This document shows, one piece after another, positions 1,486-28,018 of a stretch of 28,648 nt of DNA (position 1 is the stretch's first letter; each line of letters starts with the position of its first letter). Below the pieces are notes generated by a model. The model was not told the origin of the DNA and made no database searches. It saw nothing but the letters and a program-made list of their open reading frames with translations. This DNA comes from a virus. The DNA is taken from positions 1 to 28,648 of IMG/VR virus record IMGVR_UViG_3300028025_001100. One strand, written 5' to 3'. Position numbers and translations under genes: made by a program.

Positions 1486-1723
1486 AGTCTATCTAAAAGC
1501 AATGGGGTTATCACCCGTTGAATTTATCCCTTGCGAGGTGTGCAACAGGCGAGCCGTTGACATTCACCATATCGAACCCCGTGGTATGGGCGGCAGTAAA
1601 CTTATGGATACCCCGGAGAACTTAATGGCGTTATGCCGGGAGTGCCATCACGAAGCCGACTTTGGCGTTGAACTATCCAAGGACTTCCTAAAAGCCGTCC
1701 ACCTAAAAAAGCTCAACAAATGA
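1469..1723 (+). CDS. Compact HNH endonuclease
   Basis: The 84-aa protein is almost entirely an HNH domain: a first CxxC at C22/C25, the catalytic pair in DIHHIEPRG (H33, H34), the Asn in ENLMALC (N51), and a second CxxC at C56/C59 followed by HH. The two CxxC pairs should bind a structural zinc. Small HNH proteins near terminase genes aid DNA packaging in some siphophages, but here three sugar/methyl genes intervene and a stand-alone homing nuclease is equally possible. The 3' end overlaps the glycosyltransferase start by 4 nt. Confidence 0.88.
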   Translation: MKNHTKVYLKAMGLSPVEFIPCEVCNRRAVDIHHIEPRGMGGSKLMDTPENLMALCRECHHEADFGVELSKDFLKAVHLKKLNK

Positions 1724-2250
1724 TTCATATTATCACCCCTTGCTCCCGCCCGGAGAACCTATCAACAATCAAACAAACCATACCGGAAGATTGCAGTTGG
1801 ACGGTGGTGGTTGACGAGAAAGCAACAGGCGAGTTCCCAAACGGAATAACCTACCTACGCCCAAACGCAGGGGGCAACTGGGGAAACGCACTTCGTAATA
1901 TAGGTATGGAGTTTATATTGGCGTTAAAGGCCAAAAGAGGCGATTACATATACTTTCTTGACGATGACAATATAATTCACCCGGATTGGTTTGAGGCCGT
2001 TAAAAACGAGTTCTACCCGCTTATTACCTGGGGGCAAGTATTTAAGAATGGCCACCCAAGATTGCACCCGACCAAAGAGCCAAGGGTAGGCACAATCGAT
2101 ACTGCCTCGTTTATGGTTCGGTGCGATGCTATTGGAGAAGTAAGATTCGGAACCGAATACGAAGCAGACGGTCTATTTGCTCAACAGATGGCAAAGTGGA
2201 ATGTAAACACGCTCGATGCCTATCTTTGTTACTACAATTATTTGCGATGA
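1720..2250 (+). CDS. GT-A fold glycosyltransferase (GT2-like)
   Basis: The 176-aa protein starts with a Rossmann-like strand (MIHIITPCSRPENL), has a metal/nucleotide-sugar DxD motif at residues 81-83 (YFLDDDN) and a candidate catalytic acid in EYEADGLF (E148/D150). Asn/Gly-rich sequence NAGGNWGNALRN (49-60) fits the nucleotide-binding region. It is shorter than typical bacterial GT2 enzymes but has the full catalytic core. It would move a sugar from a nucleotide donor to an unknown acceptor. It is joined by ATGA overlaps to a SAM methyltransferase and then a GT-B enzyme, so the three probably act in one pathway. Confidence 0.82.
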   Translation: MIHIITPCSRPENLSTIKQTIPEDCSWTVVVDEKATGEFPNGITYLRPNAGGNWGNALRNIGMEFILALKAKRGDYIYFLDDDNIIHPDWFEAVKNEFYPLITWGQVFKNGHPRLHPTKEPRVGTIDTASFMVRCDAIGEVRFGTEYEADGLFAQQMAKWNVNTLDAYLCYYNYLR

Positions 2251-2777
2251 AGCAAACCAACGAGATAGATGGGTGGTTCAATCACCAAAACGCTTACGAT
2301 TTCTTATTAGACAAAGTTCCCCCTGAGGGTACCTTCGTAGAGCTTGGGGCTTGGCTGGGTAAGTCCTCCTCGTATCTATGCGATAAAGCAACAGCCGATA
2401 AACAAATAGTAATTATTGATACGTGGGAAGGTTCACCAAACGAATTAACCACAACGCATAAACTGGCTACTGAGAAAGATATATACGAGCTGTTTGTAGA
2501 TAATATGGGCGAACGTAAATACAAAGCAATTAAAGCAACTTCTAAGGCCGCAGCACGTAAATTCAAAAAGGAATCATTAGACGTTGTGTTTATTGACCTA
2601 ACTCACACTTACCAAGCTGTAAAGGAAGATATTGCCTTATGGCTCCCAAAGGTTAAGAAGGGTGGCTATTTAGCAGGAGACGATTATCACGAAAACTGGC
2701 CGGGTGTTATCCAAGCTGTAAACGAGATGCTAAACGGATTCACCGTAATAGACGATGTTTTTATATTCCAAAAATGA
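2247..2777 (+). CDS. Class I SAM-dependent methyltransferase (Methyltransf_24-like)
   Basis: The 176-aa protein shows the class I fold: motif I VELGAWLGKSS (31-41) for SAM, an acidic ribose-binding IDTW (57-60), FIDLTHTYQAVKEDIALW (115-132) and the post-strand loop GGYLAGDDY (139-147). This pattern matches the family often found beside glycosyltransferases that contains sugar O-methyltransferases. The ATG at 2247 is chosen because it sits in an ATGA overlap and opens directly into the domain; a longer frame from 2121 would run 130 nt into the glycosyltransferase gene. Likely acceptor is a sugar, by context; a DNA methyltransferase is unlikely because no target-recognition domain or DPPY-type motif is present. 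Confidence 0.82.
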   Translation: MKQTNEIDGWFNHQNAYDFLLDKVPPEGTFVELGAWLGKSSSYLCDKATADKQIVIIDTWEGSPNELTTTHKLATEKDIYELFVDNMGERKYKAIKATSKAAARKFKKESLDVVFIDLTHTYQAVKEDIALWLPKVKKGGYLAGDDYHENWPGVIQAVNEMLNGFTVIDDVFIFQK

Positions 2778-3745
2778 AGATACTCTGCATTGGAGACCCG
2801 GATTCCGGGGTGGTGTACCACCGTATTTATAAGCCCTTCACTCTACTTAAGGAGAAAGGGCTTTTAGATTTCCAGATAATCAATTACAAGCATCCAATTC
2901 CAGAGGGAGACTGGGAAGGGGTTACGCACGTTATCTTTTCACGTGCCTTGCCGTTTACCGGAGAATCCTTTGCTAACTTCTTTGCTATCTGTAAAGCAAT
3001 GGGCAAAAAGGTAATTATTGATAACGACGATTGGTGGCACTTAGCGTTAGACCACCCAAGCAAACCAACATACGATAAAGCAAACCTATCTGGAAGGATT
3101 GTAAACTCTATGTACTTTGCGGACGAGGTATGGACTACCCAAAAGTACCTGGCTGATAAGATTAAGAAGGTAAATAGAAACGTACATATTATTCCAAACG
3201 GATTAGACCCTTCCGACCCGCAATGGCAAATCACCCGTAAAGAGGCAGACGAGGTACGGTTCGGTTACGTGGCTGGAATATCCCACCTCCCAGACCTTGT
3301 GAAAAACAAGATTGACCTTTCACCATATCAATCCTATGTTGCTGATATTGGTGGATACCCACAAGCTGCAAAAGCAAGATTCGCATTAGAAACACAACCA
3401 CCAAACGAATACGGAAAACTATACCAAGCGTTTGACGTTGCCCTGGCCCCACTTTTCCCAAGTGAGTTTAACCGATGCAAATCTAATTTGAAGATGGTAG
3501 AAGCAGGGTTCGCTGGTTGTGCGTTAATTGTAAGTGACGTTGCACCATACGCAAAACACCTAACACAAAAGAACTGTATAGCCGTAAAGCATAACGGGGA
3601 TTGGAACAAGGCAATTAAATACTTACACGAAAACCCAAACAAAGCTGGGGATATTGCCTTAGCCCTTCACGAGGATATGACCACCAATTTTAATATCCAC
3701 GACTTTAATGACTTGCGTTTGGAGCGTTTGCAGAAGTTGAGTTAA
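2774..3745 (+). CDS. GT-B fold glycosyltransferase (GT4-like)
   Basis: The 323-aa protein begins with a Rossmann strand (MKILCIGDPDSG, with YHR following), has the interdomain sequence HIIPNGLDPSD (138-148) typical of group 1 glycosyltransferases, and the donor-binding C-terminal region with LAPLFPSEFNRCKSNLKMVE (224-243), where group 1 enzymes carry their E-x7-E type motif. It is about 50 residues shorter than many GT4 enzymes, mostly in the N-terminal acceptor domain. It is the last gene of the coupled cassette and is followed by a 23-nt gap before the terminase genes. Virion, host-surface or DNA-base glycosylation are all possible. Confidence 0.85.
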   Translation: MKILCIGDPDSGVVYHRIYKPFTLLKEKGLLDFQIINYKHPIPEGDWEGVTHVIFSRALPFTGESFANFFAICKAMGKKVIIDNDDWWHLALDHPSKPTYDKANLSGRIVNSMYFADEVWTTQKYLADKIKKVNRNVHIIPNGLDPSDPQWQITRKEADEVRFGYVAGISHLPDLVKNKIDLSPYQSYVADIGGYPQAAKARFALETQPPNEYGKLYQAFDVALAPLFPSEFNRCKSNLKMVEAGFAGCALIVSDVAPYAKHLTQKNCIAVKHNGDWNKAIKYLHENPNKAGDIALALHEDMTTNFNIHDFNDLRLERLQKLS

Positions 3746-21665: not shown

Positions 21666-22094
21666 ATGAAGCTATCTGAAAATTTCAGTTTGAGCGAGTT
21701 TACCGAGACCTCAACAGGTTTACCGAACAAGCCAAGCCAAGAAGCGATAACCAATTTGAAATACTTGGCGCAATACGTCCTGCAACCAGCACGTGACAAG
21801 TTTGGGCCTATTGAAGTCACCAGCGGCTACCGCTCCGAGAAGGTGAATGCGGCTGTTGGTGGTTCAGCAACAAGCGACCACCTAAAAGGAAAGGCCGCGG
21901 ACATTCAATGCGAGGATATGGCCTCTGTATTTGCGTTTATACGCAAGCAGACGCATTTTAAGCAACTCATTTGGGAGTTTGGTACAGACAAGCAACCAGC
22001 GTGGATTCACGTAAGCTATGACGTTAACAACAACAAAGGAGAAGTATTAAAAGCAATAAAGAAAAATGGGAAAACCAAATATATCCAACTTTGA
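21666..22094 (+). CDS. Endolysin, peptidase M15 family
   Basis: The 142-aa protein has the M15 zinc-peptidase motifs: VTSGYRSEKVN (51-61), SDHLKGKAADI (70-80, zinc ligands H72 and D79) and PAWIHVSY (111-118, third ligand H115), with E104 in LIWEFG as candidate catalytic acid. Length is typical for M15_3-type phage lysins. It cuts peptidoglycan stem peptides from the periplasm at the end of infection. It has no signal peptide, so it needs a holin. The 3' end overlaps a TTG in the spanin gene. Confidence 0.92.
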   Translation: MKLSENFSLSEFTETSTGLPNKPSQEAITNLKYLAQYVLQPARDKFGPIEVTSGYRSEKVNAAVGGSATSDHLKGKAADIQCEDMASVFAFIRKQTHFKQLIWEFGTDKQPAWIHVSYDVNNNKGEVLKAIKKNGKTKYIQL

Positions 22095-22105
22095 AAGCTG
22101 GCTTA

Positions 22106-22516
22106 ATGAACTCGAAGACGTACCCGCACCCCCTGCTTGCTCTATTGATAATCCTGATTGTGAGTCTTGCTCTGGGTAGTTGTTCTGCCGAATGGCACTT
22201 GCGTCAAGCCGTAAAGAAAGGAGCAAACGTCTGGCAAACGAAGTTTGATACCACTATTGTAACTAAAGAGCGAAACCTTTGGGATACGCTCACGCTAAAA
22301 GATATTGACACTGTAGTTGTCCACAAGGATAACATACGCCTAAAAATTGTTAGGAACTTTGATACGGTGCGTGTTAAAGCAACGTGCTTACCAGACACCG
22401 TGCAGGTGACTAAATACATAAAGACCTCTGTAACGGCTCCTAAAAGCCAGAATTACGAAAAGTACCTGATGCTGTTTGCAGTTGGTATGCTGCTAATAGT
22501 GTTATTAAGGCGATAG
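22106..22516 (+). CDS. Unimolecular spanin (u-spanin) candidate
   Basis: The 136-aa product combines a lipoprotein signal (hydrophobic 10-24, lipobox LGSC with C26) and a C-terminal membrane segment (120-134, LMLFAVGMLLIVLL, then RR). Between them is a beta-rich periplasmic section with repeated TVxV patterns. A lipid-anchored N terminus plus inner-membrane C terminus in one protein is the u-spanin layout (as in phage T1 gp11), which fuses inner and outer membranes at lysis. It lies right after the endolysin. An alternative TTG start at 22091 overlaps the endolysin stop (TTGA); ATG 22106 is preferred. Confidence 0.75.
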   Translation: MNSKTYPHPLLALLIILIVSLALGSCSAEWHLRQAVKKGANVWQTKFDTTIVTKERNLWDTLTLKDIDTVVVHKDNIRLKIVRNFDTVRVKATCLPDTVQVTKYIKTSVTAPKSQNYEKYLMLFAVGMLLIVLLRR

Positions 22517-22525
22517 AGGTACTTT

Positions 22526-22603
22526 ATTTGCGTTCTAACGCACTTTCTACCAAAATTGGTACATTGATATACCTTGACTAATAAAGTGCGTCTAAACGCA
22601 AAT
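22526..22603 (+). repeat. Large imperfect inverted repeat, possibly terminator of the lysis operon
   Basis: ATTTGCGTT-CTA-ACGCACTTT (22526-22546) pairs with AAAGTGCGT-CTA-AACGCAAAT (22583-22603), leaving one 3-nt internal mismatch and a 36-nt loop. Each arm can also fold alone (GCGTTCTAACGC; GCGTCTAAACGC), and the loop contains TACCAAAATTGGTA. The right arm is followed by T-rich DNA, so it may end lysis transcripts. Confidence 0.65.
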
Positions 22604-22621
22604 TTTATTTTATTTTTAATT

Positions 22622-22709
22622 TTAACTAAGTTACTTAACTAAGTTAGTTAGTTATTTAAGTTATATAGTTATTTAGTTAGTTAAATAGTTAGTTAACTTA
22701 ACTAAGTAG
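22622..22709 (+). repeat. Iteron-like tandem dyads TTAACTAAGTTA in GTTA-rich DNA
   Basis: Two perfect 12-bp copies (22622-22633 and 22635-22646) lie in tandem with a 13-nt period, and a partial copy (10 of 12) is at 22698-22709. Each contains the odd-centred palindrome TAACT-A-AGTTA. Between them are about ten further GTTA units. Tandem dyads like this are typical binding sites for a replication initiator or a repressor. Confidence 0.75.
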
Positions 22710-22724
22710 TAAAAAATAAGCATT

Positions 22725-22738
22725 GGGCGCATACGCCC
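22725..22738 (+). repeat. GC hairpin GGGCG-CATA-CGCCC
   Basis: A 5-bp GC stem with a CATA loop stands in otherwise AT-rich DNA. No T run follows on the + strand, so it is not a standard + strand terminator; A-rich sequence on its left would make a weak terminator for the - strand. Confidence 0.6.
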
Positions 22739-22770
22739 GACAAGTGTTAATAACTTTTTAGTTATTTACA

Positions 22771-22804
22771 TTGGTTAGACCTATCGTTTTGTTTTTTAGG
22801 TTTG
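22771..22804 (+). promoter_or_regulatory. Bacteroidota-type promoter for the replication module, predicted leaderless
   Basis: The -7 element TAGGTTTG (22797-22804) matches TAnnTTTG exactly, with TTG (22771-22773) 23 nt upstream. CAAT separates it from the ATG at 22809, the same 4-nt gap as at 15583 and 24479. Confidence 0.68.
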
Positions 22805-22808
22805 CAAT

Positions 22809-22997
22809 ATGGCAACAGAACGAAACGACCGACGCAAGAAACATCTTGCAATGGAATTAAAACAAATTCCTAATGACTACACCAACGCATTCCTTAACCA
22901 CTTCGGATTCTGCGACTACCCCAGAAGCGAAAACGAATCCTCAGCCCTCAGAAAATACAACACCTGGGAGCAAGGAAGGAAAAACTTTAATAAATGA
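22809..22997 (+). CDS. Small unknown protein, first gene of the replication module
   Basis: The 62-aa protein begins MATERNDRRKKHLAMELKQI and is charged, with no membrane segment; the middle contains NAFLNHFGFCDYP. I do not recognise it. It is the first gene behind the promoter at 22797-22804 and is therefore likely early and strongly made. Its stop overlaps the next start by 4 nt. Early small basic proteins often act on host or phage regulators, but nothing here proves that. Confidence 0.65.
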   Translation: MATERNDRRKKHLAMELKQIPNDYTNAFLNHFGFCDYPRSENESSALRKYNTWEQGRKNFNK

Positions 22998-24415: not shown

Positions 24416-24441
24416 GCCCCTCTCCGGAGGGGCTTTTTTTT
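24416..24441 (+). terminator. Rho-independent terminator after the ssDNA-binding-like gene
   Basis: GCCCCTC (24416-24422), loop TCCG, GAGGGGC (24427-24433) and eight T residues. It is followed 30 nt later by the helicase promoter, so it divides the replication region into two units. Confidence 0.93.
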
Positions 24442-25726: not shown

Positions 25727-25935
25727 CTATCCCCATTCCTTTTGCAGTAAATGAAGTGTTTGCTATTAACGCCAAAAAGTTTTTAGTATTGGACTATTGG
25801 AGACCCGTAAGCTGGAACCAATGGGATGCGTGGTATTTAATCGAGGACGAGCGAGGAAAGGCGTATGAGGTTCCCTACTTTCATATCCTTATCCAAAAAG
25901 AAAGAGGGAACGCTCAATATATCGGCACCCGATGA
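25723..25935 (+). CDS. Unknown small Trp-rich protein
   Basis: The 70-aa product is beta-rich with several aromatic residues (LVLDYWRPVSWNQWDAWYLI) and looks like a small barrel similar to SH3-like or KOW-like domains. It starts in a 4-nt overlap with the coiled-coil gene and ends in a 4-nt overlap with the DnaA-like gene. Function unknown. Confidence 0.65.
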   Translation: MTIPIPFAVNEVFAINAKKFLVLDYWRPVSWNQWDAWYLIEDERGKAYEVPYFHILIQKERGNAQYIGTR

Positions 25936-26324
25936 CCTACAATAAATTTTGCCAAAATATCGGTTATACCGATAACGGCGCAAGGGACTGGAGTAATGTA
26001 AAAGTCCGAGCAGCATACGTCCAAGCATTCCGACCCTTCTTTACATTAAACGAACTGGGCAGGCAAATGGGCAAGACGCACGCAACGATTATCCATTACG
26101 AAAAGATTGTTTTCCCAAAAGACCCGCTGTACGCCTCCTCGCTAAAAATAGCAAACGAAATGCGAGGCACGCTACCGGAGCCAGTGCAAGAAAAGAAGAA
26201 AAGAATAGTTACAAGTGTTCTTAATTATGATTATTTACTTGAGCAGAATGGCAAGTTAGTTAACCAAGTGAAAGAGCTTGAATCTAAGTTGGCAACGCTT
26301 AAAGAATTTATTAATGGGATTTAG
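25932..26324 (+). CDS. Protein with a DnaA domain IV-like helix-turn-helix
   Basis: The 130-aa protein carries LNELGRQMGKTHATIIHYEK at 39-58, which matches the DNA-binding signature of DnaA domain IV (an IGR.FG..H.TV.HA-type helix-turn-helix), with the THATIIHYE part as recognition helix. A helix (83-130) with a coiled-coil pattern (LLEQNGKLVNQVKELE) follows. There is no ATPase domain. It may recognise phage origin repeats, perhaps those at 22622-22709, with the helicase encoded in the same operon. A transcription-regulator role is also possible. Confidence 0.72.
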   Translation: MTYNKFCQNIGYTDNGARDWSNVKVRAAYVQAFRPFFTLNELGRQMGKTHATIIHYEKIVFPKDPLYASSLKIANEMRGTLPEPVQEKKKRIVTSVLNYDYLLEQNGKLVNQVKELESKLATLKEFINGI

Positions 26325-27834: not shown

Positions 27835-27844
27835 GTCCTAATGT

Positions 27845-27873
27845 TTGGTGTATTGTTTTTTTTTATATGTTTG
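27845..27873 (+). promoter_or_regulatory. Bacteroidota-type promoter
   Basis: TATGTTTG (27866-27873) matches TAnnTTTG exactly, with TTG (27845-27847) 18 nt upstream. A 16-nt leader (TTGAAACAAAACACCT) leads to the ATG at 27890, so unlike the leaderless group it has an A-rich leader. Confidence 0.72.
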
Positions 27874-27889
27874 TTGAAACAAAACACCT

Positions 27890-28018
27890 ATGAAAAACAA
27901 ACTCCAAGACCTCATTATTAACATAACCGTTCCGCTTGCGTGGATGGCTATTGTTACGGCATTTTTCTTTTGTGCAATTCTGCTTCCGCAGATTTTTATC
28001 TATGCGGTATGCAAGTAA
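27890..28018 (+). CDS. Small single-pass membrane protein
   Basis: The 42-aa frame begins MKNKLQDLIINITVPLAW and continues with MAIVTAFFFCAILLPQIF before a short IYAVCK tail. One long hydrophobic helix (about 14-40) with a positively charged N terminus indicates an inner-membrane protein. It is the first gene after the promoter at 27866-27873, so probably expressed early. Single-helix phage proteins of this size often modify host membrane functions (superinfection exclusion, for example), but nothing here identifies one. Confidence 0.65.
   Translation: MKNKLQDLIINITVPLAWMAIVTAFFFCAILLPQIFIYAVCK

Follow-up and report, generated by a model that had tools for sequence, protein, structure and literature searches.

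In a genome packed as tightly as that of this uncultured phage, what is the one long stretch without a gene there to do? The window (by which we mean the whole stretch of DNA that was analyzed, the 28,648-base virus record IMGVR_UViG_3300028025_001100 of IMG/VR) carries all of its nonoverlapping ORFs of at least 120 aa on one strand, and only at 22517–22808 does its plus strand run for at least 150 bp without an ORF of 45 aa. Could so short a gap close the late genes, open the early ones and also be the place where replication begins? Reading the sequence, we think that it is a compact late/early control locus and most likely also the replication origin, one of the DNA unwinding element (DUE) type fused to early-gene control, and we would put the probability of this reading at about 0.5.

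Gene order sets the scene: terminase and structural genes, an M15 endolysin, a small ORF, the gap and then the early block, made of a 62-aa ORF, DUF3310, a RusA-like resolvase, a helicase, a DnaA-domain-IV–like protein and a sigma-like protein. The initial annotation had called the gap the only long noncoding region and had placed it between late and replication genes, and it was right on both counts: this is the longest gap, with the M15 endolysin and small ORF on one side and the DUF3310, RusA and helicase genes on the other.

21666–22094, plus strand: M15 endolysin, the lysis gene 5' of the gap
22091–22516, plus strand: small membrane-type ORF between the M15 endolysin and the gap
22517–22808, plus strand: noncoding control region from the lysis genes to the first early gene, 292 bp
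22809–22997, plus strand: first early ORF, 62 aa, with a conserved start codon
24484–25422, plus strand: DnaB-like replicative helicase (PHROG primase/helicase, 8e-39)

Elsewhere in the window, glycosyltransferase- and methyltransferase-like ORFs can be made out by eye at 1720–3745, just 5' of the terminase genes, and a strong intrinsic-terminator–like hairpin, GCCCCTCTCCGGAGGGGC, followed by eight T, stands at 24416–24433, directly before the helicase gene.

What do the relatives keep? With the DUF3310 and helicase proteins we collected 113 loci, which hold 55 distinct intergenic sequences and fall by helicase identity into clades A (93–100%), B (about 75%) and C (about 70%); seven near-complete genomes were used for the tract census and stability comparison described below. 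Because a 127-nt end overlap makes the clade C record G014 circular, its genome is about 31.0 kb. The gap lies in the identical position in all relatives that cover the region. Named relatives are distant: Nonlabens phage P12024L shares about 34% identity in one late protein, and Bacteroides and Parabacteroides phages have a terminase up to about 42% identical; from these distant relatives, the host of the window's phage is likely to be one of the Bacteroidota.

The feature that carries our argument lies in the middle of the gap.

22622–22709, no strand assigned: tract of GTTA/TAAC/AAGT/ACTT words, candidate DUE; one per genome, least stable, vocabulary kept

An 80-bp stretch of it packs in 44 4-mers of this vocabulary, where the window's next best place has 17 and its mean is 3.8. 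Exactly one such tract, 49–93 bp long and always at the lysis/early-gene boundary, was found in each of the seven near-complete genomes, and a wider scan found it in further clade C loci. Nearest-neighbor energies rank it as the least stable 100 bp of six of these genomes; in the remaining one it comes second, 0.2 kcal/mol behind. The AT-rich unwinding element seen by the initial annotation thus holds up as the least-stable DNA at one fixed place per genome. Its sequence, meanwhile, is scrambled. In the clade A alignment, 24% of tract columns are gapped vs. 0% in both flanks, whose mean identities are 88% and 93%. The words AAGT/ACTT, TAAG/CTTA, AGTT/AACT and GTTA/TAAC are nevertheless enriched over composition shuffles in all three clades, and spacings of 4, 8, 12 and 16 between G or C residues are favored in clade A, whereas 6 and 10 are avoided. 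Place and vocabulary persist down to relatives whose helicase is about 70% identical. Place, low stability and words have thus been kept, and selection has acted on the content of the tract rather than on its exact sequence. As one large hairpin, the tract fails: z-scores range from +0.5 to −8.3, with the window (−0.6) and many relatives close to zero. An exact 20-mer of the tract, GTTAGTTAACTTAACTAAGT, occurs among bacterial genomes in one Bacillota MAG contig only (L127; positions 188 and 3853), which holds it together with two similar word-rich stretches.

Might the tract instead be an array of iterons, as first proposed? The repeats themselves are just as the initial annotation described them: TTAACTAAGTTA stands at 22622–22633 and again at 22635–22646, with a 13-nt period and a 10/12 copy at 22698–22709, and the odd palindrome TAACTNAGTTA lies inside both perfect copies. 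An exact repeat as long as this 12-mer turns up in 2.4% of dinucleotide shuffles of 22526–22738 and in 13.6% of shuffles of the tract alone. Under an order-3 Markov model of the tract, 81% of random sequences repeat a stretch of that length or longer, so that the "iterons" simply follow from the low-complexity GTTA vocabulary. Two copies occur in only 3 of the 55 distinct intergenic sequences (the window, L002 and L016), and the pair is found in only three IMG/VR contigs besides the window. We have, therefore, rejected an iteron-type origin: the repeats are kept neither in number nor in sequence, and word content leads one to expect them.

A better candidate for a binding site lies farther right, within a block of 99–100 nt that clades A and B share between tract end and start codon.

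22725–22738, no strand assigned: GC hairpin GGGCG-CATA-CGCCC, GGGCGCATACGCCC, seen in the sequence and the alignment
22745–22770, no strand assigned: inverted repeat with DnaA-box–like arms, TGTTAATAAC (22745–22754) and GTTATTTACA (22761–22770)

The GC hairpin, which the initial annotation had also noted, is paired in 87% of cells; part of clade B has GGAGG-CATA-CCTCC in its place, with two pairs changed on both sides and few independent changes. The inverted repeat, outside the interval first reported (22526–22738), has the consensus TGTNNAWAAC/GTTWTNNACA in clades A and B, and its invariant and variable positions are largely symmetric. Each arm contains a 9-mer one mismatch, at one specified position, from the DnaA box TTWTNCACA; the region has no exact box. 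TGTNNAWAAC occurs three to four times per clade A or B genome, two of them at the inverted repeat, a count that is descriptive only, because the pattern was defined after the alignment was seen. No such dyad lies near the tract in the clade C genomes G014 and G015. We regard this inverted repeat as a better candidate site for a binding protein than the 12-mers.

What protein might bind there? The initial annotation had spoken of a DnaA-like protein, and there is one in the early block, in the form of a DnaA domain IV fold to which homologues and structural matches both point.

25932–26324, plus strand: DnaA-domain-IV–like DNA-binding protein, 130 aa, ending in a coiled coil and lacking an ATPase domain

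Pfam Bac_DnaA_C matches 19 of 26 homologues (best 1.3e-11), with the window's own protein reaching only E 0.17. Its structural model (pLDDT 85) found no Foldseek match at E ≤ 0.001; the DnaA matches emerged in a second-look alignment, where the best three, 1j1v, 3pvp and 8btg, are all DnaA, with Z of 8.0, 7.8 and 6.6 against 5.0 and less for unrelated rows. The model consists of a helix–turn–helix (HTH) domain and a coiled coil only, and the AAA+ ATPase domain III is absent; as modeled, this is not a full DnaA but an ATPase-less domain IV DNA-binding fold. Literature searches turned up nothing directly relevant to a phage protein of this kind. Among relatives, we saw no covariation between the type of tract and this protein (Mantel r = 0.01, p = 0.38), in a test of little power: clade A proteins hardly vary in the recognition motif K-x-HATIIHY. 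Values of 0.2–0.3 for some neighboring genes are plain linkage. As a separate matter, alleles of this gene differ by a mean distance of 0.23 in clade A, vs. 0.03 for the helicase, as if by a recombination swap or diversifying selection.

The left side of the gap would belong to the late genes.

22526–22603, plus strand: 21-nt arms (22526–22546 and 22583–22603), candidate late terminator with the T-rich run
22603–22621, plus strand: T-rich run after the second hairpin, seen in the sequence and kept in clades A and B

The imperfect inverted repeat with 21-bp arms that had been described here survives in part: the arms are present and 86% complementary, and they are mostly two separate small hairpins, TGCGTTCTAACGCA and TGCGTCTAAACGCA (22529–22542 and 22587–22600). 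Because RNAalifold predicted no pairs in the left part of the gap over 23 sequences, we infer the late-terminator role rather than read it from a consensus RNA structure; Rfam and tRNA searches gave no match. In some members of clades A and C, an inserted opposite-strand ORF of 120–132 aa separates the terminator-like hairpins from the tract (L008:3892-4254 and L113:5833-6231, both minus strand; similar in L014, L023 and L103); it looks, to the eye, like a small endonuclease of HNH type, and Pfam gave no match.

How might such a locus work? Late transcription would end at the small hairpins and the T-rich run behind them. The tract would serve as the DUE, where the strands open, and host DnaA or the phage's domain-IV-only protein could bind the inverted repeat about 35 bp 3' of it. 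A bound DnaA-type protein would trigger strand opening in the tract, where the phage helicase would be loaded; firing of the adjacent early promoter would then couple early expression to replication.

For an origin we count one least-stable tract per genome at a fixed boundary, its content kept and its sequence scrambled, together with the conserved DnaA-box–like inverted repeat and the presence of a DnaA-domain-IV protein and a DnaB-like helicase in the early block. Bacterial and plasmid origins, moreover, usually have a DUE of short repeated words beside initiator sites (PMC10797057). Against it we count the missing exact DnaA box, the missing dyad in G014 and G015, the lack of covariation and the lack of a skew turn: the turning-point check suggested with the initial annotation was run, and neither GC skew nor third-position skew shows a turn, a test of little force where a phage codes on one strand only. 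Of the origin first proposed, the unwinding-type element, the boundary and the DnaA-fold protein stand; the iterons and the skew turn are unsupported, and so is covariation of the tract with the DnaA-like protein. A more specific version, in which word vocabulary alone makes the unwinding element and a minimal initiator (a DnaA DNA-binding domain plus coiled coil) opens it, strikes us as doubtful, and literature searches turned up nothing directly relevant to such an origin in Bacteroidota phages.

Because the same anatomy fits an early-promoter control region, we infer an origin and claim no more. It is quite possible, if the less probable case, that the region controls transcription only and that replication starts elsewhere. 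The hairpins would then end the late operon, the tract would act either as an upstream activating element or as an array of operator words of low affinity, and at the early promoter a phage regulator, for which the DnaA-domain-IV protein is a possible candidate, would use the inverted repeat as its operator. The site's place at the late/early switch of a phage with all genes on one strand speaks for this, as does the nearly fixed 99-nt distance from tract end to ATG, which suits promoter architecture. So does a conserved element at the first early ATG.

22797–22804, plus strand: TAGGTTTG, candidate −7 promoter element (TAnnTTTG), kept in clades A and B

It is the sole TANNTTTGC on the window's plus strand and stands just before the conserved ATG. 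The Bacteroidota promoter consensus has TAnnTTTG at −7 (PMC7366714), and we looked for this together with TTTG near −33; TAGGTTTG has a TTG 23 nt upstream (chance expectation 0.63), with an implied start at the ATG. In clade C, a promoter-like TTGACATACGCAAGTACCTATGTATAGATTATGC (TTGACA...TATAGATTATG) comes right after the tract. A full match to the consensus, TTTG-18 nt-TATGTTTG, also stands at 27844–27873, 5' of the ORF at 27940. What transcription control leaves unexplained is why the tract should be the genome's least stable DNA and why its sequence, site number and order should vary freely, since operator arrays normally keep their sites.

Could the tract have no function at all, being slippage-prone, low-complexity DNA in the sole gap of a tightly packed genome? 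The nearest tracts do differ by indels of 1–9 nt, most often 1 or 4, and the vocabulary does drift, clade A using TTAG repeats where clade C has AAGT/CAAG words. One would, however, expect some lineages of so compact a phage to have shed a repeat that was neutral. Every relative covering the region has this one, once, in a fixed place and at much the same length, whereas the named relatives and other phages scanned have no such tract; we consider a functionless tract improbable. That the region is a packaging (pac) site, which differing record starts among relatives and the one circular record would fit through single-site headful packaging, is very improbable, as a pac site is usually found within or close to the small terminase gene and the terminase genes here are about 10 kb away.

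Why should one care which of these it is? As an early-gene control region only, the locus would be of ordinary interest. As an origin, it would offer some 50 natural scrambled versions of one unwinding element, with which one could ask what counts—ease of melting, word content or exact sequence—and it would point to a DnaA-derived, ATPase-less phage protein as initiator or regulator.

How, then, does the locus compare with systems already known? Nonlabens phage P12024L likewise places early genes that include DUF3310 after its lysis genes, and most of its genome is coded on one strand; it differs in its low identity to our phage and in having the GTTA-word tract nowhere. The origins of phage lambda and of iteron plasmids also place an initiator-site region and an AT-rich element near early genes, but the window's region has no conserved iterons. 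The DUE of Vibrio cholerae ori2 consists of repeated G/AATCA words thought to be read by the initiator RctB (PMC10797057), and it is thus, like our tract, built of repeated short words, although the words are different and the phage array is scrambled among relatives. Set against bacterial oriC, with its DnaA boxes, DUE and DnaA-trio, the phage region has no exact DnaA box, uses 4-nt rather than 3-nt words and is accompanied by a DnaA-like protein without the ATPase domain; what the two have in common is an easily melted, AT-rich element of short words beside DnaA-box–like sites (PMC10797057).
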